From NCBI GenBank assembly GCA_947044405.1, contig CAMRHE010000028.1, positions 7,958,001-8,022,000 of the forward strand: DNA of 64,000 nucleotides, written 5' to 3'. Below are positions 11,001-59,377 of this stretch, one piece after another. Below the pieces are notes generated by a model. It saw only the letters and a program-made list of their open reading frames with translations, was not told where the DNA came from and did not search any database. Origin of the DNA: Leptodactylus fallax. Taxonomy: Eukaryota > Chordata > Amphibia > Anura > Leptodactylidae. Numbering within the stretch: the stretch's first letter is position 1; each line of letters starts with the position of its first letter. The translations under genes and the position numbers were made by a program.

Positions 11001-14000
11001 GATATGGTCTGCAACAAAGAATATGCTTTAGTATTTCCAAAAGCATGGTCAATCCTGGACAGAGTATGTCTGTTGGCAGAGTGACAGGAAAAGGTGCGGG
11101 CCTCCGGAAACCGGACCCGCCACAAATCCAACCACCCCAATTCACGGATCACTCCGGCCATTGTAGTAGGGCGAGGCAGAGAGGGGGGAACCCGGTTCCG
11201 CAGAGAACCGATCCAAGGCAATATCCATATCTTTGTTAAAGTCACCCAGACATAATGCAATAGCCCCAGGGAATCGGGTCGCAAACTGTGCAGCCTGCTG
11301 GAGCACAGCGAGATCAGACGCCGGTGGCAAATACACACCCAGGATAACATACAGGACAGAGTCAACCCAGGCTTGGACAAAAACGTATCGTCCCTCGGGG
11401 TCCTTTACAATGAGGCCTGGCTCCCACCTGAGTCTACGATGCACCAAAATGGACACCCCCCTGGAATAGGAAGTGTGTGTAGAGTGAGCCGCCCACTGAA
11501 CCCATGGCTTCTGAAGTCGTCTGGAATTGTCTGGAACCAAATGAGTTTCCTGAAGGCATATGAGGTGTGGGTCAGCCCTCCTAATCTGAGAAAAAACCAA
11601 CGACCTCTTTCGTGGGCTGCCCAGGCCCCTCACATTCCAAGATAGTACACTAAAGGACGCCATGGTCGTCTAAGAATGTAATGTAAAAATGGCAGTTCAG
11701 GACCCCAAAAGTGACCCGGCTATGAGTGTGTATTGCGTGGCTGAGTGAGACACAGAGTGGTGTGCAGCAACCTAAGAACAATATACAAACGAAATGAACC
11801 ATTACACCCCTAAAGGGTGTGAAACATCTTGCTGGCATAAACAAACAATATGCGTTAAATTAACCGTGGCTACAATTTACGGGGGAAGAAGTGCACCCAA
11901 AGTGGTTGGTATACGGGGCACTGTCTTAAAGGTATAGATGATCAATAGGCTAGGGGATATACTATTCAACAGAGCCAGGTTCACATGAGTAAGTAGCATA
12001 CACCGGCACCCCGGGGGTCGCCAGCCCAGGTAACTATAAGGCTACAGGATACTATAATAACAGAACCGCACTTTTCATAAAACTACTTATACAATAAACA
12101 AGGACATCCCGTAATACATAAGTCCCTATGTATGGTCCGATCGGACCTCTCACCACACGCCGTCAGGCTCATTGTCTCGGAGATCGAGGTAGAAGAGATA
12201 GCCAGTCCTCCACATCCTTTGGCGAAGTAAAGAATAGGGACCTGCCGTCATGGACGACCCGAAGACGCGCTGGGTAAATCATGGAGTATTGTATAGCCTT
12301 TTCTCTGTCGCCTCTTAACGGCCACAAAGGATGCCCGGGTCTTCTGGAGCGCCGCCGAGAAATCTGGAAACATGGCTACTGCAGCTCCGTTGTACTTAAG
12401 CTCGCCGGCCTGGCGTGCAGCCCGCAGCGCCGTATCTCGATCCGTGCTGTTTATGAGACGGGCCAACAAGGGTCGAGGAGGTGTGCCCTGGGGCGGCGGC
12501 TTAGCCGGAACCCGATGGGCCCGTTCCACTGCAAAGATTGGCGAGAAGTGAGCCTCCGGTAAGACATTTTTCAGCCACCCCTCCACAAAGGCCCGAGGAT
12601 CTTCACCCTCCGCCCGCTCCGGCAGGCCCAGGATACGGAGATTGTTTCGTCGCAATCTATTCTCCAGGTCATCCGCACGCTGTGTCCACAAACTTGCAGC
12701 TCTCTCCAGCTCCTGAAACTTGGCAGGAAGTGGGTTAACAGTGTCTTCTACCTGAGAGACCCGATCCTCCACCTCACACACCCTGCCTCGCAAGGTCTGA
12801 AAGTCCCGGTGGAGCAGGCCCAGGTCGATTTTGACCTCCTCAATTTTCCCGGTCAGCGAGGAAGTGCCGGCATGGATCGCCTCCAGTAGCTGCCCAGTAA
12901 CTTGCTTTAAAGTGGGCTCGGGGTCCTCCTCTGGAAGGGCAGGAGAGGCTGCCTCAAGCGATGATGATGTAGAAGAGGATGCTGCCCTGGAGAACCCCCT
13001 CAGGCGATCAGAGACAGAGGTTGATTGCGGGTGACTCATTTTAGAGAGTCGGCGGCCGCTCTTCCTGCGCTCCGTACGGGTGGATATGTTGGCAGAGGAG
13101 GAGGTGTGATGGTAGCAAGACCGGGCCGGTCCCAGAGGATTATAAACGAGGTCTCTGGCTAATAGCAGTTGCACAGTAGGAGCCTCTATGTCGGGCCACC
13201 AGGGCCAATCAGCCAGCCGAGGACAGACGGTAACTCAACAGTCCAATAGTATCGATGGCAACAGACTCTGGATTATGAGCGATATCACCACGAGAGAGCC
13301 GTCAGCGGAGCAGTGAAATAGACAAATTGCCAGGAGGAACTAAGAAGGGACGGATGGTAACTCAACGATCCAATAGTGCCGGTAGCATCAGTCACTGGAT
13401 TATAAGTAAAGCCTCCAAGAAGGCCAGTAGCGGAGTGATGAAGTACATAGGCTGCCAGGAGGAACTATAGGAGGACATATGGTAACTCAACAGTCCAGTG
13501 GTACATACCGCAGCCTTCACTGGATTATAAGAAAAGCCTCCCAGAAGAGCAGTCAGCGGGGTGACAAACAGGAACTCCAGACTCAGCGCTCCCCCCATCA
13601 GCAGATGGCCGACCCGATCAGGATGAAGATGGCCGCCCACCACGTGGAGAGAGGGGAAACCGCCACCCGGGCGACAGCAGGCTCAGCGGCCTCAGCAGTG
13701 CCCGCACAGCTCCAGGCCGGTCCACCAGCGCAGCCCCACAACGGCAGCTCCAAGCCCCCGCGGCACGGGACAGAGCGGCTCCGGCGGCGCAGGTGAAAGT
13801 GTCCAGCCGCCGGCCATGTGTAGCGGCCACCGACTACCACCCAGCGGAGGAGGATACCGGCAGAACGGGAGTCCCGGGACCAAGAGGAGGGCCCCAAATG
13901 TGCGTTCCTGCGGACGGCTACCCCGGGCACCGGTAAGTCAGGATGTAACTCAGGATAGATGAGCGGCTCTAACCGGAGCTCCGCTCACATGCGACCCTCC

Positions 14001-17000: not shown

Positions 17001-20000
17001 CTGGTGGATCTTCTCATACTTGTTGTCCCTCCTGATAACCCACCTTGATGTCCTTTATTGTGGTCGGGTTATCAGGAGGAACAATACATGTATGAGAAGA
17101 TAACCTGACCACAATAAGGACGACCTTGCTGGTTATTCATACATGTAGTGTTCCTCCTGAAAACCTGGCTGCAATAAGGAAATCGTGGCTGTGTCCTAAT
17201 GCACCCTTCACTGCAATTACAAATACCCAGAAGGTGTTCCCTCCAGTGTGCCCTGCACTCGATGCGGTATCCGCTCCCTAGCTGTCCTTGCATTGATGGC
17301 TTTAGCATCCAGTCAGGTGACCACTAGAACAAAGAGGGAGGAGTCTACCACTCTGCACATGTAGGGGGCCGCCTCCAGGGCACTTGTGATTGCTGTTCTA
17401 TGGTCATAAATATAATAATTTCTTGATCATGCAAACTAAGACTATTGCCCCAGTTATGGTTGATCGTGATTCTTCTGTACGGCTGATGGCACAATATGGA
17501 CAATTGCAAGTTCAAATTGCGGGCATTCCCTTTAAATAGCTAATACGGCTAATTTGTGGTTGAGGGAAGATGTAGTTATTGGCTTATTTCAGCTGCATCA
17601 GAAGGTAAATTGGTATTGGCGGTCGTCAACACTAGACATATCTGTTGGGTTCGGATTGTTCCTGTCCCTGGCGAATTGTGTATTTGTCCATTTTGTGGTG
17701 AGCCCAGGTTCACGCCATCTGTGTCTAGACTCTGTATTTTCATGACTATATCTGATGTCATACATGTGATTTGCAGTAGACTTGCCTGGACTAACTTAGA
17801 TACCACAAAAACATCTGCTTTGTTAGTGTGAATTGAGATTTCTAATGTCTGACTTTTCTTCAGTCCACAGCAGCCTCATCCTCTCAGCCTTCTTGGTATG
17901 ATCCCTTAGAGAGGTCTCCGAGCACTTACTCAGGATTGCATAGTCAGCAGCAAGACTGGGATTCTAAGAGACCAAAGCTGTCTTATTCTGGACGTACCCC
18001 TCTGTCTGGTGTAAGGAGCACCACTTCAAGCTACACTTCCAGTCCAGGTATTGCAACTTTACAAATAAATGTACTGCCTCTAGAGGGACATATGATGTAC
18101 GTGTGGTATCATTATTAAAGGGGTTGTCTGGGGAGCTTAATTAAACTTTTACTCGGAGTTCTGGGCTGATTCCAATCCCAGGGGGGTCACATAATCAGAA
18201 TCTCCTCTGGGTCGCTCCTGGCAAATCCTCATAGTACAGTTAACTGCATGTGAAAACTGGAGAGGATAGAGGTGGCAGTGACCTGGGAACCCAAGGCTGG
18301 AGCTGGCCCAGAAACCCCCAGGTCAGGTTGAATAAAATGGAAATGGAATGGATAGAAACTCTCTTGACAATCCCTTTTAAGGAGACTTTCCAGATCTTCC
18401 ATATTGATGGCTTATCCTTAGAATATATCAATATGTGATCAGTGGGGGCCAGGAACCCAGGACCCTCACAGTTCAGCTGGTTGAAGAGGCTGCAGTGTTT
18501 GGGTGAGTGCAGCAGCCCCTTTACAGTGCAGTACGTTAGCTCAGCCCTGTTTATTGAATGGGACTGAGCTGTAACTATACTCAATGACTGATTAAATGGG
18601 ACATCCTCGACACCAGGGAAAAGACTGCAGCACGTGAGTGCCTCTTTATACAGCTGATCACTGAGGGTCCCAGGTATTGGACCCCCACTGACCACATACT
18701 GGAAACCTTTCCTAAAGAGCAGCAATCAAGTCCTGGAAAATCCCTTTAAATTAAAGTGCTCTCTAGAGTTAGAGAAACATGGCTACTTTCTTCCAGGTAT
18801 TACATGTCAACAAGTTGTGTATACAGCTCCATTCCGTTGACATTGAGCTGTAGCACCTCACACATCTGTGGATGGATATTGCGCTAAGTTTTTCTAATCC
18901 TGGACAACATCGTTACTGTAAACCCCACCCCGCCTCCAAATTTAAAGGGGTTTGGCTTCCCCAAACTAACTCTTCATACTAATGACCTATCCACTCTGGA
19001 TTAGTTGTTCTAGCAGTCTCCAGGTGCCAGAAGCTGTTAGTGGATGGGAGTGTATACAGCACGGCTCCTATACAAGTAATGGGAGAAGTACAGCAGCCCC
19101 ATCAACTGGATAGTGGTGGTTCTGAGGAATTGCAGCGTTGCTCTTATTACTTGTATAGGAGCAATGCTGCACCTTCCCATCCTATCTTGTGGAAAAATCA
19201 ACTTGGTACCGGACAACCCCTTGGGGCTGGATCCTGCCACATTTTGTGATCTTCAGGCAGCATGTGCTAGACCAGAATCTGAGCACTTGATATTCCAGTA
19301 GGACTGCCTACTGGACTCCTAAGCTCAGAGTGAGCTGAGATTTCAATGGATAAATGACAAGTTATACCGGAGCTCTTTACACAGAACTATATATCCATCT
19401 GCTCAGCACCTCCTGCTAATCTTTAATATTGGCACGTCTCCCAGGCATTGTCAGGCTTTCTAATGGCAATTTACTGAGTATTTTATTACATTTGTAGAAA
19501 AAAATTGCTTGATGTACATTTGTTTAATATGCATCATCCTTAATAGTTTGCTATAACTTTTCAGACACGTCAAGCCGGTATGGGCGTTTTCCGAGGACTT
19601 CTGTGAAGCTTAATGCAGATCTAGTAAGTGAGCGTGAGAGAGAAAGGAGGACGGACACCTCATCGCATGGACTCCTGGATTATGGACATAGAAGCAGTGA
19701 TTCTACACCTTCATGTAAGTGCATGAAAAAAAAATAAAAAAGCTTGTCTTACGGTGAATACTTTTTTTTTATTCCAGGTTTGTGTTGATCTTGCATAGTC
19801 ATTCATGGTTTTTACAGAATTGTTACACAGCTTAATATATAAGCATTGACAGTTTATAGCTATAAATGTCATACACCTGAGACTCCTGTAGTCTTACCGC
19901 TTGACCTACAAACACTTTTTTTTTTTTTTTTTTTTTCTTTTTCTTTTAATGTAGATCTTCAGGATCGAGTTTCTTCATATGCACAAGGCGCAAGACCAAA

Positions 20001-23000
20001 AGAGAATTCACTAAGCACAGTTCGACTTAACACCACACCTATCAGCCGCCAGTTGCCTTCTCAGAGTTCCTCATTGCTCAGAGATTCCAGCAGGAGTTCA
20101 AGATCTGTGACGTCTAGAGACCTGCGCTCCCCACAAAGAGACAGCACCCTGGACTTCCGCCATACTTCTAATAGAAATGAAGGAACCACAAGGACTTCAT
20201 CAGGACGAGTATCCCCTGCTCCAAGGTCCACAAGCGAGCAGAATACGGATACTGAAGGCAGACGTACCACAAGGCACTTGCTTTCTCGCCTTGCTTCTAG
20301 CATGTCTTCCACCTTCTTCTCTAGGCGATCTAGCCAGGATTCTCTAAGTGGAAGGTCAACAGAAGCAGAAGAAGCACATTCAAGTTTACAGAACGCTTCT
20401 CCTCAGCCAGTAGCTACAACACCTGCCATTACAGACACCCCAGAAACTAGGCCTTCAGAACAACCTCAGGGATTTGCCTTTCTTAGACGGCGGCGGTGGG
20501 GCTTGTCGTCCGTGTCTCCAAATCAGAGCTCTGATTCTGATGCTGAAAGTTACAGGTCAGAAGATTCGGAGACCAGGACTTCTGGCTCATGGCTGCCTTC
20601 ATCTTTAAGGAATCGGTGCACACCTCTGTTTTCCAGGAGAAGACGGGAAGGAAGAGAAGAACCGTTCAGAGCCGCATCTACCTCTGATTCTAGTAGGATG
20701 CACAATCTTTTCAGGAGGGCCTCACAAGATGATTCATTAGATGAAGTACACACTGTCCAAGGAGCAGGGGCAGCTGCTGACAACCCTTCCCCACTGTCAC
20801 CGGACTCTCTGAGCGGCAGTGCCCAGGCTGCGTCTCTAGCAGAGTCCCTTTTCAGTCGGAGAAATTCAGGCATATCAGGCATGCTTCCTAACTCCTTTTT
20901 ACATTTCTCAGTGCCAGCATCACTTGGGAGCTCCTTATCAGACAATGTCATGATAACCGTAGACATTGTTCCCTCAGGTAGGACAAGTGATGGACAAGAG
21001 AGTGAAAAGACTGAAAGCTCAAGGGATCCGGAGAAGCTTAAGAAGATTCAAGAAAGGTAAGTGTTAGAAGAGGAAGGGGTAACGCCACTGTATCAAGCTG
21101 CACTAAAGCAGAGGTGTTGGGTCTCCTGTGCACCCTGTAGAATAGTGAGAGCATTGCTTGCTTAGGTTATATAGATTTCTGTGAATTCAGTATTTTTATG
21201 TAATACATGGTGGGAAAGCCTGTGAGTTCTTACCCATACTGTGGACACAGGAATCCTTGACATTTTCCCTCCTGTCAGCATGTGTACAGTTAACATAAAT
21301 TACAACACTAAGGGGCCAATTTATCAATGCTGCTGGCTTCCATGCACACTTGATCCTTGTCTCGCTGGGTGCAGGATCCGTGTACTTCAGTGACTCTCTG
21401 CATAGATTTGTGGCATCCCTTACTCTACAAAACCGGCATAAATTTCTAAACCTGATGAACTCCCAGCCACAACCCTCTTTGAACAAAAATATGTACTTGT
21501 AACATAAATTGCATCCTTCTTTTTTTTTTTTTTTTTTTTTTTTTTTCATGGCTTGTATGCCAGTTTTCTGACACACAAGACATGATAAATCCACCCTTAT
21601 AATCCCTGAGCTGAGGATCTTCCTCTCTCATGCTACTCTCATATTGTGGCATGCTTTTATTGTTGGTGTTTCTAAAAGTATTGAAAACAAGCAAAAACTT
21701 TTGATTTTAATCTCTCCCGTCTTTTTAGCCTTCTCCTGGAGGACTCTGAAGAAGAGGATGGTGACTTGTGTAGAATCTGCCAGACTGGAGTAACCACTCC
21801 AACCAATCCCTTTATCGAGCCATGTAAATGTTCTGGAAGTCTGCAGTATGTTCACCAGGACTGTATGAAGAAATGGCTTCATGCAAAGATCAATTCTGGT
21901 TAGTTCTCAGGGAAAAACATATATAATAGTTAGGCTTATTATTGGTCTGTATGCATGCAGTACTAGGGAGCACATCCCATGAGAATCTTAAAGGGTGTCC
22001 CCATTGTCGTTTATCCCCTGTAGAATAAGGGATAAATGTATTTTGCTAGGGATCTGATCACCGGTACCCCCAGCGGTCACAGTAAGGGGTCCCATGTGGA
22101 TAGGTTTGGTTTTTAACAAAAAATAATGAAATGAATGTTTTGAGCCCATATCTGCAGTATACCAGTTCATAAACGGCCGGTCCTATAGAGTAAGATACTT
22201 CTGTCATATGGTTTGGCATGTCCTCTCCAATAGGTAGCCCACCATTGCTGGACATTGCAGTTCTTCTCCTGCGCATTGCCATTGAGTGATGCAGACTCAT
22301 AGCTCACTTGTAGTAATATAGATACTTGGCCCTAAATCTCTTTATGTAAATTTCAGGTTCTAGTCTTGAAACAATAACCACATGTGAATTATGTAAAGAG
22401 AAGTTGGATTTGAACTTGGAGGATTTTGATATACAGGAACTTTACCGGGCCCATGCCAATGAGAGGGTGAGTATGGGGTGAATGTCTCTTGTTAAAGCGA
22501 ATACAGGTGTGATATTACTGGTAAGTAAAGTGGCGCTACTTTTCTACAGAACTTATACGTATACACTGGGTCCTCCATAGCAGACTTTGCCCTTAATGTG
22601 TTACATGCAGGTTTTTTGCAAACTTGCTGTAGAGATCACCCTGTGCATTGCAAAGGGTGAAAACTTGCTGCACGCTTATCATTTTTACATGCTTTACGCT
22701 GTGGATTTGCAGTGCAGTATCCTACTTTATACCTCACTACTGTGGGTTGTGCACTTGGGCCCACACTTGATAATATCTGGTGCATTTTCAGACTAGCACA
22801 GTGGCTGCTGCTGGATGATCTGGTGCATCTTTAGACTCTCCAGTCTGTTTACACCAACTATCAGTTGGTTCACTTGGCTCCAGAATTTTTTGCAAAAAAA
22901 AAAAAAAAAAAAATGCAATTGTGGAGCACATGTAGAACCTTTTAGTGTGTCAAAAACCCTGTGTATTGGACACTGATCCTATGGATGGGTGAGCAGGGGC

Positions 23001-44185: not shown

Positions 44186-45790
44186 CAGTGCTGGCCAAAA
44201 GTATTGGCACCCCTGAAATTCTGTCAGATAATACTCAATTTCTTCCAGAAAATGATTGCAATCACAAATGCTTTGGTAATAATATCTTCATTTAATTTGT
44301 CTTCAATGGAAAACCACAAAAAGAATTGTCAAAAAGCCAAATTGGATATAATTCCACACCAAACATAAAAAAGGGGGTGGACAAAAGTATTGGCACCCTT
44401 TGAAAAATCAGGTGATGCTTCTCTAATTTGTGTAATTAACAGCCACTTACCTGTGGCACATAACAGGTGGTGGAAATAACTAAATCACACTTGCAGCCAG
44501 TTGAAATGGATTAAAGTTGACTCAACCTCTGTCCTGTGTCCTTGTGTGTACCACATTGAGCATGGAGAAAAGAAAGAAGACCAAAGAACTGTCTGAGGAC
44601 TTGAGAAGCAAAATTGTGAGGAAGCATGAGCAATCTCAAGGCTACAAGTCCATCTCCAAAGACCTGAATGTTCCTGTGTCTACCGTGTGCAGTGTCATCA
44701 AGAACTTTAAAGCCCATGGCACTGTGGCTAACCTCCCTAGATGTGGACAGAAAAGAAAAATTGACGAGAGATTTCAACAAAAGATTGTGCGGATGGTGGC
44801 TAAAGAACCTCGACTAACATCCAAACAAGTTCTAGCTGCCCTGCAGTCCGAGGGTACAACAGTGTCAACCCATACTATCCGTCGGCGTCTGAATGAAAAG
44901 GGACTCTATGGTAGGATACCCAGGAAGATCCCACTTCTGACCCAGAGACATAAAAAAGCCAGGCTGGAGTTTGCCAAAACTTACCTGAGAAAGCCAAAAA
45001 CTTTTTGGAAGAATGTTCTCTGGTCAGATGAGACAAAAGTAGATCTTTTTGGGAAAAGGCATCAACATAGAGTTTACAGGAAAAAAAAAGAGGCCTTCAA
45101 AGAAAAGAACACGGTTCCTACAGTCAAACATGGCAGAGGTTCCTGATGTTTTGGGGTTGCTTTGCTGCCTCTGGCACTGGACTGCTTGACCGTGTGCATG
45201 GCATTATGAAGTCTGAAGACTACCAACAAATTTTGCAGCATAATGTAGGGCCCAGTGTGAGAAAGCTGGGTCTCCCTCAGAGGTCATGGGTCTTCCAGCA
45301 GGACAATGACCCAAAACACACTTCAAAAAGCACTAGAAAATGGTTTGAGAGAAAGCACTGGAGACTTCTAAAGTGGCCAGCAATGAGTCCAGACCTGAAT
45401 CCCATAGAACACCTGTGGAGAGATCTCAAAATGGCAGTTTGGAGAAGGCAGCCTTCACATCTCAGGGACCTGGAGAAATTCCAGCAGAGCATTGTAAGAA
45501 ACTCATTGATGGTTACCGGAAGCGGTTGTTCGCAGTTATTTTGTCTAAAGGTTGTGCTACCAAGTATTAGGCTGAGGGTGCCAATACTTTTGTCCAGCCC
45601 ATTTTTGGAGTTTTGTGTAAAATGATCAATGATTTGACTTTTTTTTTCATTCTCTTTTGTGTTTTTTCATTGCAAGCAAAATAAATGAAGATATTATTAC
45701 CAAAGCATTTGTGATTGCAATCATTTTCTGGAAGAAATTGAGTATTATCTGACAGAATTGCAGGGGTGCCAATACTTTTGGCCAGCACTG
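44186..45790 (+). mobile_element. Tc1-type transposon, full length, inactive
   Basis: CAGTGCTGGCCAAAAGTATT at 44186 and its reverse complement ending at 45790, each flanked by TA. Inverted repeats of about 150 bp or more: AGATAATACTCAATTTCTTC near 44226 against GAAGAAATTGAGTATTATCT near 45731. 1605 bp, the normal size. Confidence 0.95.
44562..45570 (+). pseudogene. Tc1 transposase with two frameshifts
   Basis: It starts MEKRKKTKELSEDLRSK (helix-turn-helix region). The DDE domain shows VLWSDETKVDLFG, QQDNDPKHTS and SPDLNPIEHLWRD. A frame change sits at about 45143 (after VKHGRGS) and another near 45480. The ending LSKGCATKY is in the third frame. An intact protein would be about 336 residues. 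Confidence 0.92.
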
Positions 45791-49380: not shown

Positions 49381-50323
49381 TTAACCACTTCCAGACAGCC
49401 CATTGGGTTTTTACGTCTGGAAGGTGGTTGTCTAGTTCTGCAAGGACGTAACGGTACATCCAAGCAGAACTCAGAAGCTGCACAAAATCGTGCAGCTGCT
49501 GAAACGGGGAGCCGGCTGTAACTTCAGTCGGAGCTCCCAGAGAGAAGACAGGGAAGGTTTATTACTGTCCCTGCCTTCCCGATCGCTGCGTACACAGTGC
49601 TCAATGAGCACAGTATACAGCGCTATGGGCGCCGCTATCTTGCAGCTCCCCTCTGACCCGGCAGTCATGTGATTCGCCAGGATCTGAGTCTGTTAGAGCT
49701 GCTGGGTCCTACAGGACCCAGATCAGCTCTATAGTTATGTGTAAGTAATGTGCAGGCGGCTGTATTCCTCCTGCTGTAACTAGGGCTAAATGTGCCAGCC
49801 CCAGTTACAAGGGATCTGATGTACCCAAAGGTCTATTATGACCTCATGGGGACACCATGTAAAAAAAATAAATAAATTGAGAAGTTAAAAAAAAATGTAA
49901 TTAAAATAATTAAAAAAATAATACGCCAATAAAACGCCGTTATTAAAGGCTATAGCTCTACCCCCGACGACACCATATAAAATAAAAATTACCGTAATGG
50001 AGAGGAAAAACTATTTGATAAGGTTTTTTTAGTAGCACTTTGTGTTATTAAATAAAAAAAATGAAAAGTGAAAAACAGACCTGTTTTCCCTCCTGTTTTG
50101 TTTATATTTTCCCAGACATAAAAAAAAAAAATTAAAAAACACATGCAAAAATAAAAACAACATAAAAATAAAGCCCTACGTGTCACCGAAAAAAAGACGC
50201 AGAAATTAGTTGAATAACACAAATGATAAAAATGTTACAGCCCTCAAAACCGCTCATACAAAAAAACCCGAAAATGTGTCTGGTCTGGAAGGGGGGTAAA
50301 GCACCTGGTATGGAAGTGGTTAA
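49381..50323. mobile_element. TTAA-flanked non-autonomous DNA transposon
   Basis: Ends TTAACCACTTCCAGAC and TATGGAAGTGGTTAA are inverted copies with TTAA at both edges. 943 bp. The interior is low in coding content and A-rich at the right. TTAA plus CC ends fit piggyBac-like or Kolobok-like elements; which of the two I cannot say. Confidence 0.7.
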
Positions 50324-50508
50324 ATCTAAAAGTAGAGATACTGACCTTGTGATCTTGTAGAAATGGCGACCCCCTAAATAACTAAATAACGTACTTTTAT
50401 TTTGGAGACAATTTCATCAAATCTAATCCATCTCACTTCACCAAGCTTTCTTAGAGTCCCGATGGACAAATATACCTTCTTTTGTTTTAATACATCCAGT
50501 CACTGGAT
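50324..50508. other. Left flank of the LTR element
   Basis: Short spacer. Its last four bases GGAT (50505-50508) are the target duplication. Confidence 0.6.
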
Positions 50509-51489
50509 TGTAAGAGACAGCCAATGTTGTCCTAAACTTTATTTGTCTGTATAAACTGTTAATGTTGAATGTATTTCTGTGATTCTGTTCCTTTAAGACA
50601 GCAGCCATTGTAATTGTGACATGATGCTGGAGTGAGACCCCCCCCCCCCCCTTTTATGTCAGCCTGCCTGTTCTGCAGACAGAGTGTGAGCAGAGAAGCA
50701 GGAAGTGACGAGACAGAGAGCAGCAGCCATCTTGGCAAGTGTTGTATTGAACTGGTGTGGAGATTTTTCTGTACAGCTAAGCTGTATCTTGGTCCAGAGA
50801 CAAACAGAGTGTAAAGAGACAACAGGACTAGTGAGTCCACGTGAAAGGAACTGTGCTCAGTGGCTGATCAGTGAGACTGACATTGTGACTGTGTATTTGG
50901 ATACCACAGATAGAGACTCGCAGTGCTGTTGATGTACTGGACAGCACCTGCTAAATCCCGGTTTACATCCCAGCTCAGTGTATGGATTCGGCAGGACTGT
51001 CAGTGTGCTGAGTGGAATCTGCTGTTGGATTACATTGCATTCAGTTGGTTTCCCTGTCTGTTAAAGAGGACTTCATTTCTCCCAAGATCCTGATAACCGT
51101 GAGGAGAGGACGCTTCACTATAAAAGAAAGGACCGACTTTGGGCCCCACCGCGCGCTTCTACGGACTGTAAGCGGTCCACCTGGACCACTGGGGAAAAGG
51201 GGGTGCACCCAAATGTGATGTCAGGGTCAGTTAGGGATAGTTTTGAGTATATTGTTCATTCAGTGTCCATACTGCAGAAGTGGACAGAGTAAAAGTAGAA
51301 ACCATTGCAGAATTTGCCTTGAAATTGTTCATGCTATATTGTATATTTTGCTTGTCTTTATCCCTGTCATTTTACCTTCAAATAGCCTTTATTAACTTAT
51401 AGTAAATATATATTCTTTTCTTGAACTACCGCGTGTGCGTTCATTTCTGGTTGCGGAGTCCAAACCACCTGCCTTGCTCTCGGTTCACA
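50509..51489 (+). repeat. 5' LTR (981 bp)
   Basis: TG...CA ends. It matches 56702-57686 base for base as far as I can read, apart from a C tract at 50638-50651 (14 C here; 7 C, T, 10 C in the 3' LTR). It carries the promoter that transcribes the element. Confidence 0.96.
51119..51126 (+). promoter_or_regulatory. TATA box of the 5' LTR
   Basis: TATAAAAG, with transcription expected to start about 30 bp further on, near 51150. The same box stands at 57316-57323 in the 3' LTR. Confidence 0.65.
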
Positions 51490-51492
51490 AAT

Positions 51493-51510
51493 TGGCGTAG
51501 TCGGCAGGAT
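51493..51510 (+). promoter_or_regulatory. Primer-binding site, tRNA-Ser type
   Basis: TGGCGTAGTCGGCAGGAT starts 3 bp after the LTR. It is complementary over 18 bases to the 3' end, with CCA, of vertebrate tRNA-Ser (AGA/TGA group), whose acceptor end reads ATCCTGCCGACTACG plus CCA. Minus-strand DNA synthesis would start here. Confidence 0.85.
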
Positions 51511-51522
51511 CCGCTTACCAGA

Positions 51523-52548
51523 ATGGACGGTGACGCACCCGTTCGGGAGAATGGTGCTGGAGGAAGAATGCCAGCAGGGGCTATAATAAGTCAGTTAGCT
51601 AAATTTGATGGCAATAATATGTCAGTGAGTATGTGGGTGGAACAGATACGAATGATACAGCGAATGTACCAGACCGCACCAGAAGTACTAGTAGATCTAG
51701 CAATATTGACATTACAAGGGGATGCTAAGACCACGGTGATATTGAGGCCATTTGAACAAAGGCAGACATTTGAGCAAGTAGTCCAGATTCTAGAAACCAT
51801 TTATGGAGAAACTGCATTGCTGGGGTCTCTGCAGGCTCGGTTCTTCCAGAGGGTACAACAGGAGAATGAAAGCCTTCCCCAATATGCAAATGCCCTACAA
51901 GAACTGCTCCGAGATATTCAAGTGAAGGAAAGAGGGGGCTCGCCAGCCTTCTGTAACCCTGATCGGACTCTCCGTGATCAGTTTGTCCTGGGGATACGTG
52001 ACGGCAGTTTAACTGTGACTATGCAGGATTTTATACGACGAGAGACTGATGCTAAATTCCATGATGTACAGGTAGAGGCCATCTCCCGTGCCAATAGTAT
52101 GTTCCCGAAGCCCCAGACCGCAGTTGGAGTTACTTTGTCACAGGGGGCTAGTTCTGGCTCAGAGACAGTAGAAAAGGGGACGGTTAAAGAAATTCTCACA
52201 GTAATGCAGAAACTGCAAGAGCAAATGGAACACTTGCACACCCGTTGTGATGAACATTCTATGAAAATTGCAGACTTCCAGAAAACTGGAGGTGAAAGGG
52301 TGAGCCGTCCATACCCAGAAAATCAGAATCACCCACCACCCCACTGGAGGGATGAGGATAGGACCTACCGAAGGGGTCCAAATCAGTTAATGCAGTGCTC
52401 AGGAGAAATCGAAGGGGCTTACCGAAGGGGCCCAAACAGATGGCCAGAACGACGGGAGATACGCTGCTGGGAGTGTGGACGGATGGGCCACGTTGCTGCT
52501 AGATGTCCAGAGCAGCGACAAACTTATGAGAGACCGCCGTTAAACTGA
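51523..52548 (+). CDS. gag: Gag of the Ty3/Gypsy element
   Basis: 341 residues from ATG 51523, the first ATG after the primer-binding site. The frame is open further upstream into the LTR, but that part is not expected to be translated. The N-terminal two thirds is a capsid-like helical region (FDGNNMSVSMWVEQIRMIQ, then LQARFFQRVQQENESLPQYA). The C-terminal part is basic and ends with one CCHC zinc knuckle, CWECGRMGHVAARC, which binds the RNA genome. TGA at 52546-52548 directly follows the heptamer GTTAAAC. No stop or shift within. Confidence 0.93.
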   Translation: MDGDAPVRENGAGGRMPAGAIISQLAKFDGNNMSVSMWVEQIRMIQRMYQTAPEVLVDLAILTLQGDAKTTVILRPFEQRQTFEQVVQILETIYGETALLGSLQARFFQRVQQENESLPQYANALQELLRDIQVKERGGSPAFCNPDRTLRDQFVLGIRDGSLTVTMQDFIRRETDAKFHDVQVEAISRANSMFPKPQTAVGVTLSQGASSGSETVEKGTVKEILTVMQKLQEQMEHLHTRCDEHSMKIADFQKTGGERVSRPYPENQNHPPPHWRDEDRTYRRGPNQLMQCSGEIEGAYRRGPNRWPERREIRCWECGRMGHVAARCPEQRQTYERPPLN

Positions 52549-52586
52549 AGTCCCCTGCTGCTGTAGGGCGTGTAGTAGGGGAGACT
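52539..52586 (+). promoter_or_regulatory. Candidate -1 ribosomal frameshift site
   Basis: GTTAAAC (52539-52545) is in the G_TTA_AAC register of gag, directly before its TGA. It is the type of heptamer known from nidoviruses. The pol frame is the -1 frame and is open from 52530. Downstream, AGTCCCCT (52549-52556) can pair with AGGGGAGACT (52577-52586), leaving one bulged base. A fusion of gag and pol by slippage is inferred. Confidence 0.7.
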
Positions 52587-52598
52587 GACAAGGAGACT

Positions 52599-55500
52599 AT
52601 GTGGGGAGAATGCCCTGATGATGACCTGATCGCTGCAAGTCCTGTCATACAGGTGGAAATGGAGGGTATTCCGGTTACCGGGATGATTGACACGGGTTCC
52701 CAAGTAACGACCTTGAGTAGAGACTGTTATGAACGGTACTTCCAGCAACATGTGAAATATGATCCCCATACATTCGTACGAGTGGTCGCAGCTAACCAGT
52801 TACCAGTTCCAGTCGTGGGAGTGGCCTGGATGAATGTCCGGGTATGTGGCCAAGATCTAGGTAGGAAAGGCATTGTGGTGGTACAGGAGTCACATGAAGT
52901 AAAGGTCCCTGTCATTTTGGGGATGAATGTGTTAAAAGAATTAGATCAGATCCTCTTTGAAAAGAAAGGTCACGGTTATTGGAAAGAAACCACCACCCAT
53001 CGGCCTACTCAAACAGCTTTCCAGCGGCTGATCCGGACATGTGGCTTACAGAAAAGTTCAGATGCACAGCGTCCTCTGGCTCGAATTTCAGTTCCTTTGC
53101 ATACAAAAGTTACACTGCCACCCAGTCGGGAGACAATAGTGTCCATGCCCATAGGCACCTGTCGGAAACTAGAGGGCATAGCTGTGTTGGTAGAACCACT
53201 GCAGGCAGCCGAAGGAGGTGTTGATCCGCTAGTGGCCCGTTCCTTGGCAATAGTTCGCAATGGAAGAGTACCACTTCGATGTGTAAACACTCAGGACCAG
53301 AGTGTGGACCTGACCCCAGGGAGGCTGCTGGCTAACATCTATGTGACTCCGGAGGAAGTAAGGAAAGTAACTCCAATGCAGCTGAAGCCGACTGAAAGGG
53401 ATGAGTGGACCGTAACTGTGTCCATGGGAGAAGATGAGGAACCCACCTCTGAATGGAATGGCCGTGCAATTCGAGAACAGATGAAGATGGATGCAAGTTC
53501 ATGTTCTCTGGAATGGGTGCAGAAGGTAGATGAACTGTTGTGGGAGAACCGAGCCGCCTTTTCACGGTATGCTGAAGATTTTGGATGTACCACAGGGATC
53601 TACCATGAGATTCCCACAGGAGACACCCCTCCAATTAGAGAGCGCTACCGACAAATTCCTCCACAGTTGTATCAGGAAGTAAAAGAACTGTTAGCTAAGA
53701 TGCTACAGGGTGGGATCATCCAAGAAAGCCAGAGTCCCTGGGCAGCTCCTGTGGTGTTAGTAAGAAAAAAAGATGGGTCCATCCGATTTTGCGTAGACTA
53801 TCGGAAGTTAAACGCTTGCACCGTACGAGATTCCTACCCCTTGCCACGGATTGAGGAGTCCCTCTCAGCGCTAGGGAGAGCCCGGTACTTCTCCTCACTA
53901 GATCTGGCTAGTGGGTATTGGCAGGTGCCGATGGCCACAAAAGACAAGGAGAAGACGGCATTCATCTTGCCCATGGGACTATACGAATTTAACCGGATGC
54001 CCTTCGGGTTGACAAATGCACCCGGAACGTTTCAGCGGTTGATGGAGAAATGTCTCGGTGACTTCAACTTTGAGTTCACTCTCATCTACTTGGATGACAT
54101 TATAGTGTATTCTGCGACCTTTGAAGACCATCTCCACCAGTTGGGGCAAGTATTTCGAAGACTGCGGGAACATGGGCTCAAATTGAAACCCAGTAAATGT
54201 CGGTTGTTCCAATCTGAAATTGATTACTTGGGTCACCGCGTATCAGGAGAAGGGGTGAGACCATCAAGAGACAAGATAGCGGCTGTTCAAGATTGGCCAA
54301 TACCGACTACCCTGCGAGAAGTGAGGGCGTTCCTTGGAGTAGCCGGTTACTATCGACGGTTTATTAAGGATTTCGCCAAGGTAGCAGCACCACTTAATGC
54401 TCTCCTACGAGGCACATCCGGTGGTCCAAAGAACCGGTCCGTGAAGTGGGGACTTGAACAGGAACAAGCCTTCCAGGCATTAAAGGATGCACTGACAACA
54501 GCCCCAATCTTGGCATATGCTGATTACCACTTGCCGTTCCAGCTGTATACGGATGCAAGCCTGTATGGTCTTGGAGCAGTGCTTTCCCAGCTTCAGGATG
54601 GCCAGGAGAGGGTCATAGCGTACGGCAGCCGGTCTTTGAGAGATTCTGAAAGAAACCCCGAGAATTATAGTTCATTTAAGTTGGAGCTGTTGGCACTGGT
54701 ATGGGCCATGACCGAGAAATTCTCTGAATATTTGACCGGTGCTGAAGTTTTAGTACTGACTGACAACAACCCACTAGCTCACCTGGAAAATGCCAAGCTC
54801 GGGGCGTTAGAGCAGAGGTGGATAGCCCGAATGACTAAGTTCAATTACCGCATTAAGTATCGGTCCAAGACAGAGAACCAGAATGCTGACGGGCTTTCTA
54901 GGGTAACCGCCCAGACCCCCACAGTAGACGTGGATCATGAGTTGGAGCATGTGGAGGTGCCCGACTTCAGCAGATTTTCACAGGCCTTGGCCGCCGCTAA
55001 TCAGTTTGAGATGGAGGGGACTGAAACGGCTCCTTTCTTTGGTCCCTCACGACAGGAATGGGCACAGATACAACAGACCCATGAGGGGCTGGCACAGATG
55101 ATCAAGTGTGTTGAGAAAGGCCAGAAGCCCTGTAGAGAGGAAAGAGAACGACTGACACGTGAGATATTATCTGTTCTGAGTCAGTGGGAAAAGTTGGAGA
55201 TGAAAAATGGAGTGCTATGCCGAAAGGTCTATTTACCTTCTGAGATCGACATTCGATACCAAATTGTGGTGCCTAGTGAACTGGCTCGCTCCTTGGCAGT
55301 TGAGGCTCATAATAAGAATGGACATTTTGGTCATGAGAAGACCTTTCGTTGGTTACAGCGACTGATTTACTGCCCTGGTCTTCGTCAAATGGTCGAAGAA
55401 GTATGCCGCAGCTGTCGAACTTGTGAGATCCATAAGGCAATAGAACAGAGAGCTCCCCTGCAAACCATCGTGACCCAGGAACCTTTAGAAATCGTCATGA

Positions 55501-56687
55501 TAGACTATCTAATGGTGGGCCCATCCAATAGCGGACACCAGTATTGCCTCGTAATGGTGGATCACTTCACCAAATTTGCGGTGGTAACCGCCACCAAGGA
55601 CCAGACAGCTGAGTCAGCAGCTCGTGCTCTGTGCCAAGATTTCATTCGAGTATATGGGTGCCCTAAACGCATCCACTCCGACCAGGGTGCCTGCTTTGAG
55701 GGACACGTAATGAAAGAAGTTCAACGTATCTACGGGATAAAGAAGTCGCACACGACTCCATACCACCCTCAGGGAAATGGGGCCTGTGAAAGATTCAACA
55801 GAACTCTGCTACAGATGCTGTGGACTCTGGAGGAAGACAAGAAGTTACAGTGGCCTCAGTTCTTGTCTGAAATGGTGTGGGCCTATAACAATCAGGTCCA
55901 TTCTACAACGGGGTACTCTCCTTATACACTTCTCTTTGGGCGGTCTGGGCGAAGTATAGGAGAATTACAGTTGAATGATGTGGATGGGTTCCCTCCGAGG
56001 GATCCAACCTCTTGGGTGCGGGCGCATCGGCAGAGACTTGAGACGATCCATCGATTGGTGCGGCAGCGCCTGCAAGAACATCCCCATCCTGATAAGACCC
56101 CAGTGCAAGAAGCACCATTGCAACCAGGCGACCTGGTGCTAGTTCGTGTCAAGAAACCCCAAGGGAAATTGGAAAGCAGATGGGAGGCTTTGCCGTATCG
56201 TGTTGTTGGCCGCAAGTATGCGAATGGGCCAGTGTACCAGGTCCAGAAAGAAGGAACTGATTGTGTTAGAGTACTTCACCGAAATATGTTGCGCCTGTGT
56301 CATTCTGAAGGGACAAATCACGATGGGCCTGCCAATGTGAATGAGCTCCCACAGTCAGAGAATGGAGGTGCGGAATGGGCCTCCGACGAGGAGGATGATT
56401 GTTGGCCGATCCCTGCTCCTGGGGATGTTCCACCTGTGACTACTGTATCTGCGGCCTGTGCCCCCTCTGGTGCGGAATCCGCTGGTCCTTCTCAGCCCAT
56501 AGCTGCAGCACCCCATAATATACCACCGGTCCTCAGACGGACCACTAGGCCAAATGCTGGTATTCCCCCTGTTCGGTATGCGCAGGATGAGTTTGTTTGT
56601 CCTGCCATACATCGGTATACTACCACTCTGTGCATAAAAGTACAACCCTCTGGATATACAGTCATAGGCAGGGACTGCCAATCTTAA
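52599..56687 (+). CDS. pol: Pol of the Ty3/Gypsy element (protease, RT, RNase H, integrase)
   Basis: 1362 codons from the first ATG of the frame; the frame itself opens at 52530, so translation probably enters by -1 frameshift. Positions count from that ATG. Protease: DTGS at 31-34. Reverse transcriptase: RFCVDYRKLN, then YLDD at 497-500. RNase H: TDAS with D652, then ELLALVW and LTDNNPL. Integrase: zinc domain H904...H...CRSC/C, catalytic D969, D1028 and E1064 (DD35E spacing), and a C-terminal GPY/F-type module (SRWEALPYRVVG, GPVYQV). No chromodomain is seen. The tail after about 1230 is acidic and Pro/Ala-rich. No internal stop or frameshift and all catalytic residues are present. Confidence 0.96.
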   Translation: MWGECPDDDLIAASPVIQVEMEGIPVTGMIDTGSQVTTLSRDCYERYFQQHVKYDPHTFVRVVAANQLPVPVVGVAWMNVRVCGQDLGRKGIVVVQESHEVKVPVILGMNVLKELDQILFEKKGHGYWKETTTHRPTQTAFQRLIRTCGLQKSSDAQRPLARISVPLHTKVTLPPSRETIVSMPIGTCRKLEGIAVLVEPLQAAEGGVDPLVARSLAIVRNGRVPLRCVNTQDQSVDLTPGRLLANIYVTPEEVRKVTPMQLKPTERDEWTVTVSMGEDEEPTSEWNGRAIREQMKMDASSCSLEWVQKVDELLWENRAAFSRYAEDFGCTTGIYHEIPTGDTPPIRERYRQIPPQLYQEVKELLAKMLQGGIIQESQSPWAAPVVLVRKKDGSIRFCVDYRKLNACTVRDSYPLPRIEESLSALGRARYFSSLDLASGYWQVPMATKDKEKTAFILPMGLYEFNRMPFGLTNAPGTFQRLMEKCLGDFNFEFTLIYLDDIIVYSATFEDHLHQLGQVFRRLREHGLKLKPSKCRLFQSEIDYLGHRVSGEGVRPSRDKIAAVQDWPIPTTLREVRAFLGVAGYYRRFIKDFAKVAAPLNALLRGTSGGPKNRSVKWGLEQEQAFQALKDALTTAPILAYADYHLPFQLYTDASLYGLGAVLSQLQDGQERVIAYGSRSLRDSERNPENYSSFKLELLALVWAMTEKFSEYLTGAEVLVLTDNNPLAHLENAKLGALEQRWIARMTKFNYRIKYRSKTENQNADGLSRVTAQTPTVDVDHELEHVEVPDFSRFSQALAAANQFEMEGTETAPFFGPSRQEWAQIQQTHEGLAQMIKCVEKGQKPCREERERLTREILSVLSQWEKLEMKNGVLCRKVYLPSEIDIRYQIVVPSELARSLAVEAHNKNGHFGHEKTFRWLQRLIYCPGLRQMVEEVCRSCRTCEIHKAIEQRAPLQTIVTQEPLEIVMIDYLMVGPSNSGHQYCLVMVDHFTKFAVVTATKDQTAESAARALCQDFIRVYGCPKRIHSDQGACFEGHVMKEVQRIYGIKKSHTTPYHPQGNGACERFNRTLLQMLWTLEEDKKLQWPQFLSEMVWAYNNQVHSTTGYSPYTLLFGRSGRSIGELQLNDVDGFPPRDPTSWVRAHRQRLETIHRLVRQRLQEHPHPDKTPVQEAPLQPGDLVLVRVKKPQGKLESRWEALPYRVVGRKYANGPVYQVQKEGTDCVRVLHRNMLRLCHSEGTNHDGPANVNELPQSENGGAEWASDEEDDCWPIPAPGDVPPVTTVSAACAPSGAESAGPSQPIAAAPHNIPPVLRRTTRPNAGIPPVRYAQDEFVCPAIHRYTTTLCIKVQPSGYTVIGRDCQS

Positions 56688-56701
56688 AGTGGGGGGGAAT
56701 A
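56686..56701 (+). promoter_or_regulatory. Polypurine tract
   Basis: AAAGTGGGGGGGAATA lies directly before the 3' LTR, where plus-strand DNA synthesis would be primed. It overlaps the end of pol by a few bases. Confidence 0.8.
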
Positions 56702-57686
56702 TGTAAGAGACAGCCAATGTTGTCCTAAACTTTATTTGTCTGTATAAACTGTTAATGTTGAATGTATTTCTGTGATTCTGTTCCTTTAAGACAGCAGCCA
56801 TTGTAATTGTGACATGATGCTGGAGTGAGACCCCCCCTCCCCCCCCCCTTTTATGTCAGCCTGCCTGTTCTGCAGACAGAGTGTGAGCAGAGAAGCAGGA
56901 AGTGACGAGACAGAGAGCAGCAGCCATCTTGGCAAGTGTTGTATTGAACTGGTGTGGAGATTTTTCTGTACAGCTAAGCTGTATCTTGGTCCAGAGACAA
57001 ACAGAGTGTAAAGAGACAACAGGACTAGTGAGTCCACGTGAAAGGAACTGTGCTCAGTGGCTGATCAGTGAGACTGACATTGTGACTGTGTATTTGGATA
57101 CCACAGATAGAGACTCGCAGTGCTGTTGATGTACTGGACAGCACCTGCTAAATCCCGGTTTACATCCCAGCTCAGTGTATGGATTCGGCAGGACTGTCAG
57201 TGTGCTGAGTGGAATCTGCTGTTGGATTACATTGCATTCAGTTGGTTTCCCTGTCTGTTAAAGAGGACTTCATTTCTCCCAAGATCCTGATAACCGTGAG
57301 GAGAGGACGCTTCACTATAAAAGAAAGGACCGACTTTGGGCCCCACCGCGCGCTTCTACGGACTGTAAGCGGTCCACCTGGACCACTGGGGAAAAGGGGG
57401 TGCACCCAAATGTGATGTCAGGGTCAGTTAGGGATAGTTTTGAGTATATTGTTCATTCAGTGTCCATACTGCAGAAGTGGACAGAGTAAAAGTAGAAACC
57501 ATTGCAGAATTTGCCTTGAAATTGTTCATGCTATATTGTATATTTTGCTTGTCTTTATCCCTGTCATTTTACCTTCAAATAGCCTTTATTAACTTATAGT
57601 AAATATATATTCTTTTCTTGAACTACCGCGTGTGCGTTCATTTCTGGTTGCGGAGTCCAAACCACCTGCCTTGCTCTCGGTTCACA
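56702..57686 (+). repeat. 3' LTR (985 bp)
   Basis: Copy of the 5' LTR. The 4-bp length difference is fully explained by the C tract at 56831-56848. It is followed by the target duplication GGAT. Confidence 0.96.
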
Positions 57687-57690
57687 GGAT

Positions 57691-58477
57691 GATTAGACTT
57701 ATTTTGCCATTCAGCACTGTATTGGTTGTCATTCGGCTTTTCTAGTGTCCAGAATGGCAAATCCACCTTTGTTATATTTATACAGAAAAGCTGTGACAGT
57801 CTTGGCTACCACAGGGGTTTTCACCAAAAAAAAAATAAAAAATCATTATACAGTGTTAAAGGATTTATTGATGCAATTCAGGACCCCAGAAAAACCAGAT
57901 GACAACCAGTACAGTCTCAGTAACTACTCCCACCAGGGCTTTTACCCAGCTTTATTAGAATCCTGAATGGCAAAATAGTAGAGTGATAGAAAATGCAATG
58001 GCACACAAGTCAGATTTTCCGTTCAGTACTCCAGAAAAGATGGGTAAGCTGGGTGTTACTGCAACCATACTGTCACCCGACTTTTCCAGGAACAGATACA
58101 ATTAAGAATAGAGTTGAGACACCTTTGAAACAGAGCTGCTAATGGAATAAGGGACTGTCACATGAGGTTCCAGAATTTTCCTGTATTTGCAGACAAGTTA
58201 AATCACCTGGGATTCCCGGGAATCTCCTGATTCTCAGGTCCTCTCACCCAGTCACCTGATTTCACACCTCAGTGCAGTGAATACTAATGAGGAGGTTGCC
58301 AGGAGATCCTTTATTAATTTAAAGTTCAGTTTTACAAATTTTTTTCATTAGGTATCTGAGAGAATTGGAACTAAAGACACAGAGTATTTAAAGTGTAACT
58401 AAACTTTCCGACAACTTTGGATTTTCTGTATTATATAAATTGATCTATACAGTATTTTACTGTCCGTACATAATATA
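57691..58477. other. Right flank of the LTR element
   Basis: No gene. The word TTTTGCCATTCAG (57710) and the inverted CTGAATGGCAAAATAG (57963) may be the remains of an inverted-repeat element. Confidence 0.4.
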
Positions 58478-58690
58478 TTGTATATAGAGAGACCTATATA
58501 TAGTATTGTACCATCCTACATAATATATATATATTATCTATATAGTGTTGTACTGACAATATATAATATATTGTATATAGAGAGACCTATATATAGTATT
58601 GTACCATCCTACATAATATATATATATTATCTATATAGTGTTGTACTGACAATATATAATATATTGTATATAGAGAGATCTATATAGTAT
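58478..58690. repeat. 93-bp AT-rich tandem repeat, 2.2 copies
   Basis: TTGTATATAGAGAGACCTAT starts at 58478 and 58571, and a variant (GAGAGATCT) at 58664: spacing 93 bp each time. Confidence 0.88.
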
Positions 58691-59377
58691 AGAGGTTCAC
58701 CCGGCGGTTTCATTCAGACCAAACACGGCTGAACCAAAACTACAATTATACTCTGGGGTAGAAGAGACCCCAGAGTATAATATGCTGAGGCCTAGGGGTG
58801 GTGATCAAACATAAAAAAACAGTCTTACTCACCTCTCCTGGGCTCTGGTGTGACTCCCTGCTGTCTTTGGCGCTTCTGACTGACATCAGGGACAAATGGG
58901 TCACACAGCATTGTGATGGGTCACACAGGCATCAGCGGTCCCTGACGTCAGTCAGAACCGCTGAAGAAGGCAGGGAGTCATGCCAGAGCACAGGAGAGGT
59001 GAGGAAAGTTAGGTTTACATCTGTGTTGGAGTCTCCGCTGCAGATTCTGTCTAAAATCGACGGAGAGAAAAGTCCTGTATGGAGGACTTTTCTTTCTTCC
59101 GATTTCAGTATAAAACTGGCGGAAACCTGACGAACACCTGGTGGACCCCGTTTTAGAATATGGGGTCCATGGGAAACCGCTTTTTTAGTGGACGGGCTCT
59201 CAGTGTTTCGGGAACCTAGTGTAACACTGTTTTTTTATATTCCATCACCTTTCCTGGCCTTCCGCTTATTATACTCTGGAGTCTGAAGAGACCCCAAAGT
59301 ATAATAATAGGAGTTCGGAATCGGACATTTGGTCGAATGAAACTGCAGGTAAAACCTGGCAAATATTGTAATAACCG
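58691..59377. mobile_element. Foldback element with long central palindrome
   Basis: The outer ends are degraded inverted copies (GTTTCATTCAGACCAAACAC against TTTGGTCGAATGAAACTGC). ATTATACTCTGGGG near 58747 matches TATTATACTCTGGAG near 59268. The core 58830-59005 is a palindrome with arms of about 70 bp (CTCACCTCTCCTGGGCTCTG, GTGACTCCCTGC, CTGACTGACATCAGGGAC and inverses). Confidence 0.7.

Follow-up and report, generated by a model that had tools for sequence, protein, structure and literature searches.

The locus considered here raises the question of whether the long terminal repeat (LTR) retrotransposon at positions 50509–57686 of a 64,000 nucleotide (nt) stretch of the Leptodactylus fallax genome (contig CAMRHE010000028.1, forward strand positions 7,958,001–8,022,000; this whole stretch is termed the window) is a complete and recent insertion, and what its copies can tell of how it is primed and how its strand transfers go wrong. 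The answer favored here, with a probability of about 0.85, is that a complete element of the Ty3/Gypsy type, belonging to a large young family, retrotransposed to this place recently; a history of priming, strand-transfer errors and template switching is proposed for it. Taken by itself, the element is a new but ordinary representative of a known kind. The new part of the findings is a likely second stop on the tRNA-Ser primer, in the variable arm.

The element is bordered by the duplication GGAT at 50505–50508 and 57687–57690, and all of its parts lie on the plus strand. The 5′ LTR (50509–51489, 981 nt) and the 3′ LTR (56702–57686, 985 nt) both show TG...CA termini, and the former carries a TATA-like TATAAAAG near 51120. 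The primer binding site TGGCGTAGTCGGCAGGAT at 51493–51510 is the complement of the CCA-bearing 3′ end of tRNA-Ser, as judged by the match to the tRNA-Ser(TGA) gene L054 and by sister copies with further tRNA-Ser sequence at this place. Reading frame and Pfam analyses give a gag of 341 amino acids (aa), from the ATG at 51523 to the TGA at 52548, with a weakly PNMA-like capsid region and one CCHC knuckle, and a pol frame open from stop to stop at 52530–56687. The pol domains are protease (residues 17–113), reverse transcriptase (RT, 388–548), RNase H (617–748) and integrase with H2C2 and core (891–1106), in that order. The pol stop is 14 nt from the 3′ LTR, and a purine-rich tract GTGGGGGGGAATA is read at 56688–56701. 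A preliminary description had claimed two uninterrupted coding frames and a perfect 4-bp duplication, and both are borne out. No Rfam match was found within 50000–58700, and ARAGORN called no tRNA in the window.

Paired LTRs, the short duplication, the order of the pol domains, the tRNA primer site and the purine tract place the element in Ty3/Gypsy (Metaviridae), and for RT the closest solved structure by sequence is yeast Ty3 Gag-Pol 7q5b (E-value = 5.4e-107, best of 221). LTRs, a tRNA primer site, a CCHC gag, the protease-RT-RNase H-integrase order and a short target duplication are shared with other Ty3/Gypsy elements, whereas the LTRs are family-specific, the primer is tRNA-Ser, and there is a frameshift candidate. 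The chromodomain of chromoviruses gave no Pfam match at E 0.1 at the integrase C-terminus. An env frame of the errantivirus or retrovirus kind is also absent, as there is no sense open reading frame of at least 80 aa between pol and the 3′ LTR. The element may belong to the Mag lineage.

The alignment of the two LTRs proposed in the preliminary description shows zero substitutions; the sole difference is a gap of 4 nt, CCCT, which lies within a C tract at position 134 of the LTR. The earlier claim that the LTRs differ only in a slippage-prone C tract thus holds as to the place and the single difference, but the gap contains a T, so slippage in the number of Cs alone is insufficient. The same tract also varies between LTRs of other copies and is therefore useless as a clock. 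Both LTRs of the window copy look free of assembly damage. Zero changes in 981 bp give a 95% age bound of 1.53 million years at 1e-9 and 0.51 million years at 3e-9 substitutions/site/year, anuran rates that are quoted in PMC12822217. With open frames and Pfam domains in place, the earlier reading of an intact and very young copy, now put at less than about 0.5–1.5 million years, is upheld.

Thirteen clean LTR pairs were compared, chosen by similarity to the window copy, so the sample is not random. Five of them, the window pair and those of L029, L031, L036 and L025, have no substitution outside the C tract, which strengthens the case for a recent insertion. Those of L030 and L033 have one substitution each, that of L034 differs at the first four bases and the C tract only, and those of L011, L012, L013, L022 and L032 show more differences. 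The differences in L011 and L012 were rejected as a measure of age, as the same three sites are swapped. Homopolymer-like runs, an assembly consensus artefact that is misleading for LTR dating, occur in the LTRs of L010, L014, L018–L021, L023, L024, L026 and L028. These ten, seen directly, make up half of the 20 copies that had been fetched for their RT similarity, and because of such stretches caution is called for with LTR identities in this assembly. For this reason, blocks of LTR differences in RT-picked copies were not accepted as real substitutions.

The family is large. A 36-nt string spanning the LTR end, primer site and leader has 2,520 exact occurrences in the genome and its reversed control has none. 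The near-identical copies that had been proposed as a check were found by both LTR and RT searches: of 775 LTR candidates 40 were scored, all about 99–100% identical, and of 351 RT candidates 40 were scored, all about 100%. Among 26 fetched copies gag is open in 23, pol in 21 and both in 19; L018, in which pol runs off the contig, was scored as not open. The pooled nonsynonymous/synonymous rate ratio against the window copy is 0.27 for pol and 0.61 for gag over these 26 copies, which are not independent. A perfect 4-bp target duplication is present in 18 of 22 examined copies, the window copy included, and 14 LTR pieces include six solo LTRs with perfect duplications. The idea that the window copy is unusually young or intact was rejected, with 5 of 13 clean pairs at zero and 19 of 26 copies open. 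Elements of this kind have been linked to the size of frog genomes (PMC12822217).

When the window copy is compared in 250-nt tiles, its nearest relatives are a group A (L029–L032, L034) at 50509–51008, in U3, and at 56009–56758, from about 56.0 kb to the end of pol, and a group B (12 RT-picked copies) at 51509–55758, from gag onwards; its U5 is nearer to L033 and group B. These tiles show that recombination between two subfamilies gave rise to the window copy. One template switch near 55.76–56.0 kb between two co-packaged RNA types would have produced it, and this would give U3 and R-U5 their differing ancestry. The copy may be active or polymorphic in the population, as the preliminary description suggested. 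As to the insertion site, no empty allele is present in the assembly: the joined flanks match only the two flanks of the window itself at 99–100%, with 40 of 66 candidates scored. Among these, 20 older paralogous repeats at 74–82% identity cross the insertion point without an element, thus the element landed in an old repeat.

The identity of the primer can be read from the copies. tRNA-Ser loci were sought by an exact 25-nt pattern only, which gave 13 places: seven element copies and six tRNA genes or tRNA-like loci. Only L054 among the six was called cleanly by ARAGORN, as tRNA-Ser(TGA). In the seven element copies the primer site continues into tRNA-Ser sequence, so the primer is taken to be tRNA-Ser, and these extended copies prove its identity better than the 18-nt complement does.

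A census was made of every exact LTR end plus primer site in which the next base is other than C, and all 62 sites found were read. Fourteen keep the normal leader apart from its first base (ten T followed by the normal CG, one inserted T, three A); the ten T variants could have arisen by slight overrun of A58 or by simple C-to-T substitution. Eighteen sites join to position 56582, seven sites on seven contigs to 55735, two to other sense positions (52023 and 54594), and six to antisense element sequence. Nine carry extended tRNA-Ser sequence, with seven different junctions.

The 56582 junction leaves an LTR, the primer site, a 134-nt core with the purine tract, and an LTR. Its 3′ part starts at GCAGGAT (56582–56588) in a mini-element family consisting of L036 and 17 more, with the 18 occurrences on 17 contigs, one of which holds two in a tandem at a distance of 1.1 kb. 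Fifteen of the 17 newly fetched pieces show no difference from the first over 110 nt (the exact count is 14 besides the reference); L109 and L121 have one base different each and L111 departs after 80 nt. L036 shows an ACTA duplication and no LTR substitution. TRIM-type mini retrotransposons consist of two LTRs, a primer site and a purine tract, and have no coding core. L036 shares with them the two LTRs, the primer site, the purine tract and a non-coding 134-nt core; all of these, together with a duplication, were established for L036, the one member whose flanks were read. This family differs from TRIM-type elements in its long LTRs (about 980 nt) and in that the parent and the birth junction are visible. 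The 56582 and 55735 forms presumably moved with the help of full-length elements.

These junctions fall preferentially where the element sequence repeats the 3′ end of the strong-stop DNA. At ten element junctions, distinct from the extended ones, that fit the usual 18-nt stop before A58, the overlaps are 7, 4, 7, 6, 3, 0, 1, 6, 2 and 0 nt, a sum of 36; the random mean is 0.33 per junction and 0 of 20,000 random sets reach as high. Six extended junctions plus L036 give an overlap sum of 23 against a random mean of 0.72, again with 0 of 20,000 as high; L061 was scored as 0 in this test, and L036, an 18-nt stop case, is present in both. All three internal sense CAGGAT sites serve as junctions (52023, 54594 and 56582). 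The element junctions resemble second-strand transfers that went astray, with short matches as their guide. Strand-transfer errors reportedly delete sequence in retrovirus vectors (Pulsinelli and Temin, 1991, as cited in PMC9278108), where a wrong landing of strong-stop DNA makes internal deletions, as is proposed for the frog element. The frog element differs from the vectors in having germline copies, two stop positions on tRNA-Ser and later multiplication.

The proposed course is as follows. tRNA-Ser would prime reverse transcription, and the plus-strand strong-stop DNA would be copied into the primer, normally ending after 18 nt, before A58, and then pairing with the primer site copy. Sometimes it may end at 18 nt yet pair elsewhere in the element at a short match. 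At other times it may pass A58, end after 35 nt in the variable arm and pair by short matches. Products of both kinds of error would have been integrated, and at least two 18-nt-stop products would have multiplied as non-autonomous deletion forms.

Stop positions were counted in copied tRNA nucleotides from the CCA end. For the extended junctions the breakpoint ranges are 31–37 (L049), 35 (L051), 33–35 (L052 and L053), 31–37 (L055), 33–35 (L056, of which L089 is the same junction), 32–35 with one mismatch at nt 30 (L061, for which a strict reading gives 29), and 33–35 or 33–43 by tRNA type, with one mismatch (L088). The only value common to all seven is 35. In the census, where a non-C at nt 19 was the sole condition, no stop falls between 22 and 31 except the strict L061. 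Judged from these junctions, a second stop after 35 nt, in the variable arm, is likely to be real. The literature searched, the coverage of which is incomplete, yielded no description of integrated copies with a stop in the variable arm.

Perfect duplications surround six of the tRNA-extended insertions (CTGA, the 5-bp GTATG, CCTT, GATG, CATG and GTAT; the check covered all but L088 and L089), which argues against assembly error. In L051 a sense LTR, which is shortened, is followed by the primer site and 35 nt of tRNA and then by part of an antisense LTR whose end coincides exactly with the LTR terminus, with GTAT on both sides. L051 and L072–L076 show two LTRs in inverted orientation, hinged at 35 nt of tRNA, an arrangement that resembles an integrated fold-back of strong-stop DNA. 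L052 and L053, 6183 nt apart on the same contig, form an LTR-core-LTR-core-LTR tandem with one tRNA-extended junction in both cores and GATG around the whole; it arose either by unequal exchange between LTRs or by assembly duplication. Junctions common to L052 and L053 and to L056 and L089 show that some extended copies were copied on, as would be seen if all went back to a subfamily in which a longer primer site was inherited, and not to separate errors. Such descent is very improbable, since the downstream sequence is joined at seven different junctions, of which one lies in inverted LTR sequence, and since none of the extended copies has the normal leader after the extension.

The second stop, as distinct from such inheritance, may have more than one cause. 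Position 36 copies the middle base of the variable-arm loop, a C in L057–L060, which we take to be e2/C47d in the tRNA numbering. C47d is a reported m3C site in human tRNA-Ser. Against a modified base, the variable-arm loop of L054 reads UUU, with no C for m3C. This same loop also favors a rather doubtful but sizeable possibility, that the 35-nt stop marks where a cut primer ends on its 5′ side: cleavage of tRNA-Ser in the loop of the variable arm would have left a 3′ fragment that served as primer, and the polymerase would have run off the end of this fragment. The stop does sit in an exposed loop, and 3′ tRNA fragments matching primer sites exist in mammals according to part of one source (PMC7472051), but a fragment of exactly 35 nt would be required in germ cells. 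Since L054 has no C in the loop and a cut fragment would end alike, either a modified base or a cut primer may cause the second stop.

According to a review, the plus-strand strong-stop DNA of human immunodeficiency virus type 1 (HIV-1) ends at m1A58 of tRNA-Lys3 and is extended without the methylating enzyme, and products are functional only if they end at m1A58, psi55 or m5U54 (PMC13191261). HIV laboratory work suggests that A58-passing products are dead ends, whereas in the present reading of the frog element such products were integrated. It is put forward tentatively, with somewhat less than even confidence, that the germline copies are an archive of plus-strand strong-stop ends with two discrete stops, one before m1A58, at 18 nt, and one before C47d, at 35 nt. 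Products that passed A58 would have been rescued by short matches, integrated and sometimes copied on, the repeats could be read as a record of germline tRNA modification, and mini-retrotransposons would be born by one misdirected transfer.

Several observations count against the history proposed at the outset. Since similarity was the basis on which the first copies were chosen, young copies are favored in the figures for age and open frames. Assembly damage in LTRs could hide or create differences. In L011 and L012 the same three linked LTR sites are swapped between 5′ and 3′, which points to conversion or assembly mixing. The tRNA-extended junctions L051 and strict L061 are without a match overlap. 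Six of the 62 census sites (L083, L090, L092, L108, L117 and L128, with L083 and L090 alike) run on into sequence that the element does not contain, and the model accounts for these only loosely; transfers onto other templates or later deletions are possible. The swapped sites, like the homopolymer-like stretches in LTRs of other copies, would suit an older insertion whose LTRs were made identical by gene conversion or assembly homogenisation. This is considered improbable, as the window LTRs are clean, the frames open and the duplication perfect, and other LTR pairs of the family are also at zero.

Gag and pol of this recently inserted element are probably joined by a −1 frameshift, as judged from the reading frames. 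The gag end reads ...CCG CCG TTA AAC TGA and is overlapped by pol in the −1 frame. The candidate heptamer G TTA AAC (52539–52545), directly before the gag TGA, conforms in its second half to the X XXY YYZ type and is used by an arterivirus. ERPPLN is kept as the last gag residues in a relative of 34% gag identity. A candidate stimulatory stem at 52551–52582, 5 nt 3′ of the heptamer, has a folding z-score of −3.1 for a 45-nt piece chosen after the stem was seen; the first 100 nt tried gave −0.98. Gag would be made first, and a −1 slip at the heptamer would then yield Gag-Pol.

The best matches among named protein relatives are from frogs, including Leptodactylus fuscus and Eleutherodactylus coqui. 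The best frog gypsy matches listed are 81% and 73% identical in RT-RNase H, while fish gypsy proteins are mostly at 53–63% among the matches listed. One relative, P0057 (Engraulis), has gag and pol in one reading frame, unlike the window element. The gag capsid region scores 24.5 bits against Pfam PNMA (PF14893), for which the cut-off is 25, and the gag relatives P0002 (25.1 bits) and P0057 (32.5 bits) lie above it. Part of one source places PNMA genes beside metaviral gags with an N-terminal RNA-binding domain of roughly 100 residues (PMC11011659). The window gag has only about 33 residues before the PNMA-matched region, and this domain seems absent from it. A structure model of gag was discarded as poor (pLDDT 44).

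Other features of the window include a Tc1/Sleeping Beauty-like transposase split across two frames (44517–45625), a minus-strand non-LTR retrotransposon with broken frames (7865–13174, RT 9261–10184), and an AT-rich tandem repeat of period 93 with 2.7 copies (58432–58686). A serine-rich 404-aa frame at 19846–21060, in which Pfam found no domain, may resemble the large exon of MARCHF7.

For this family, the primer tRNA can be identified from the genome alone by means of sister copies, which also place two stops on it, and a single genome shows the parent, the junction and the offspring of a non-autonomous mini-element. Should a modified base be behind the second stop, a scan for this signal could be made in any genome that has a young LTR family.

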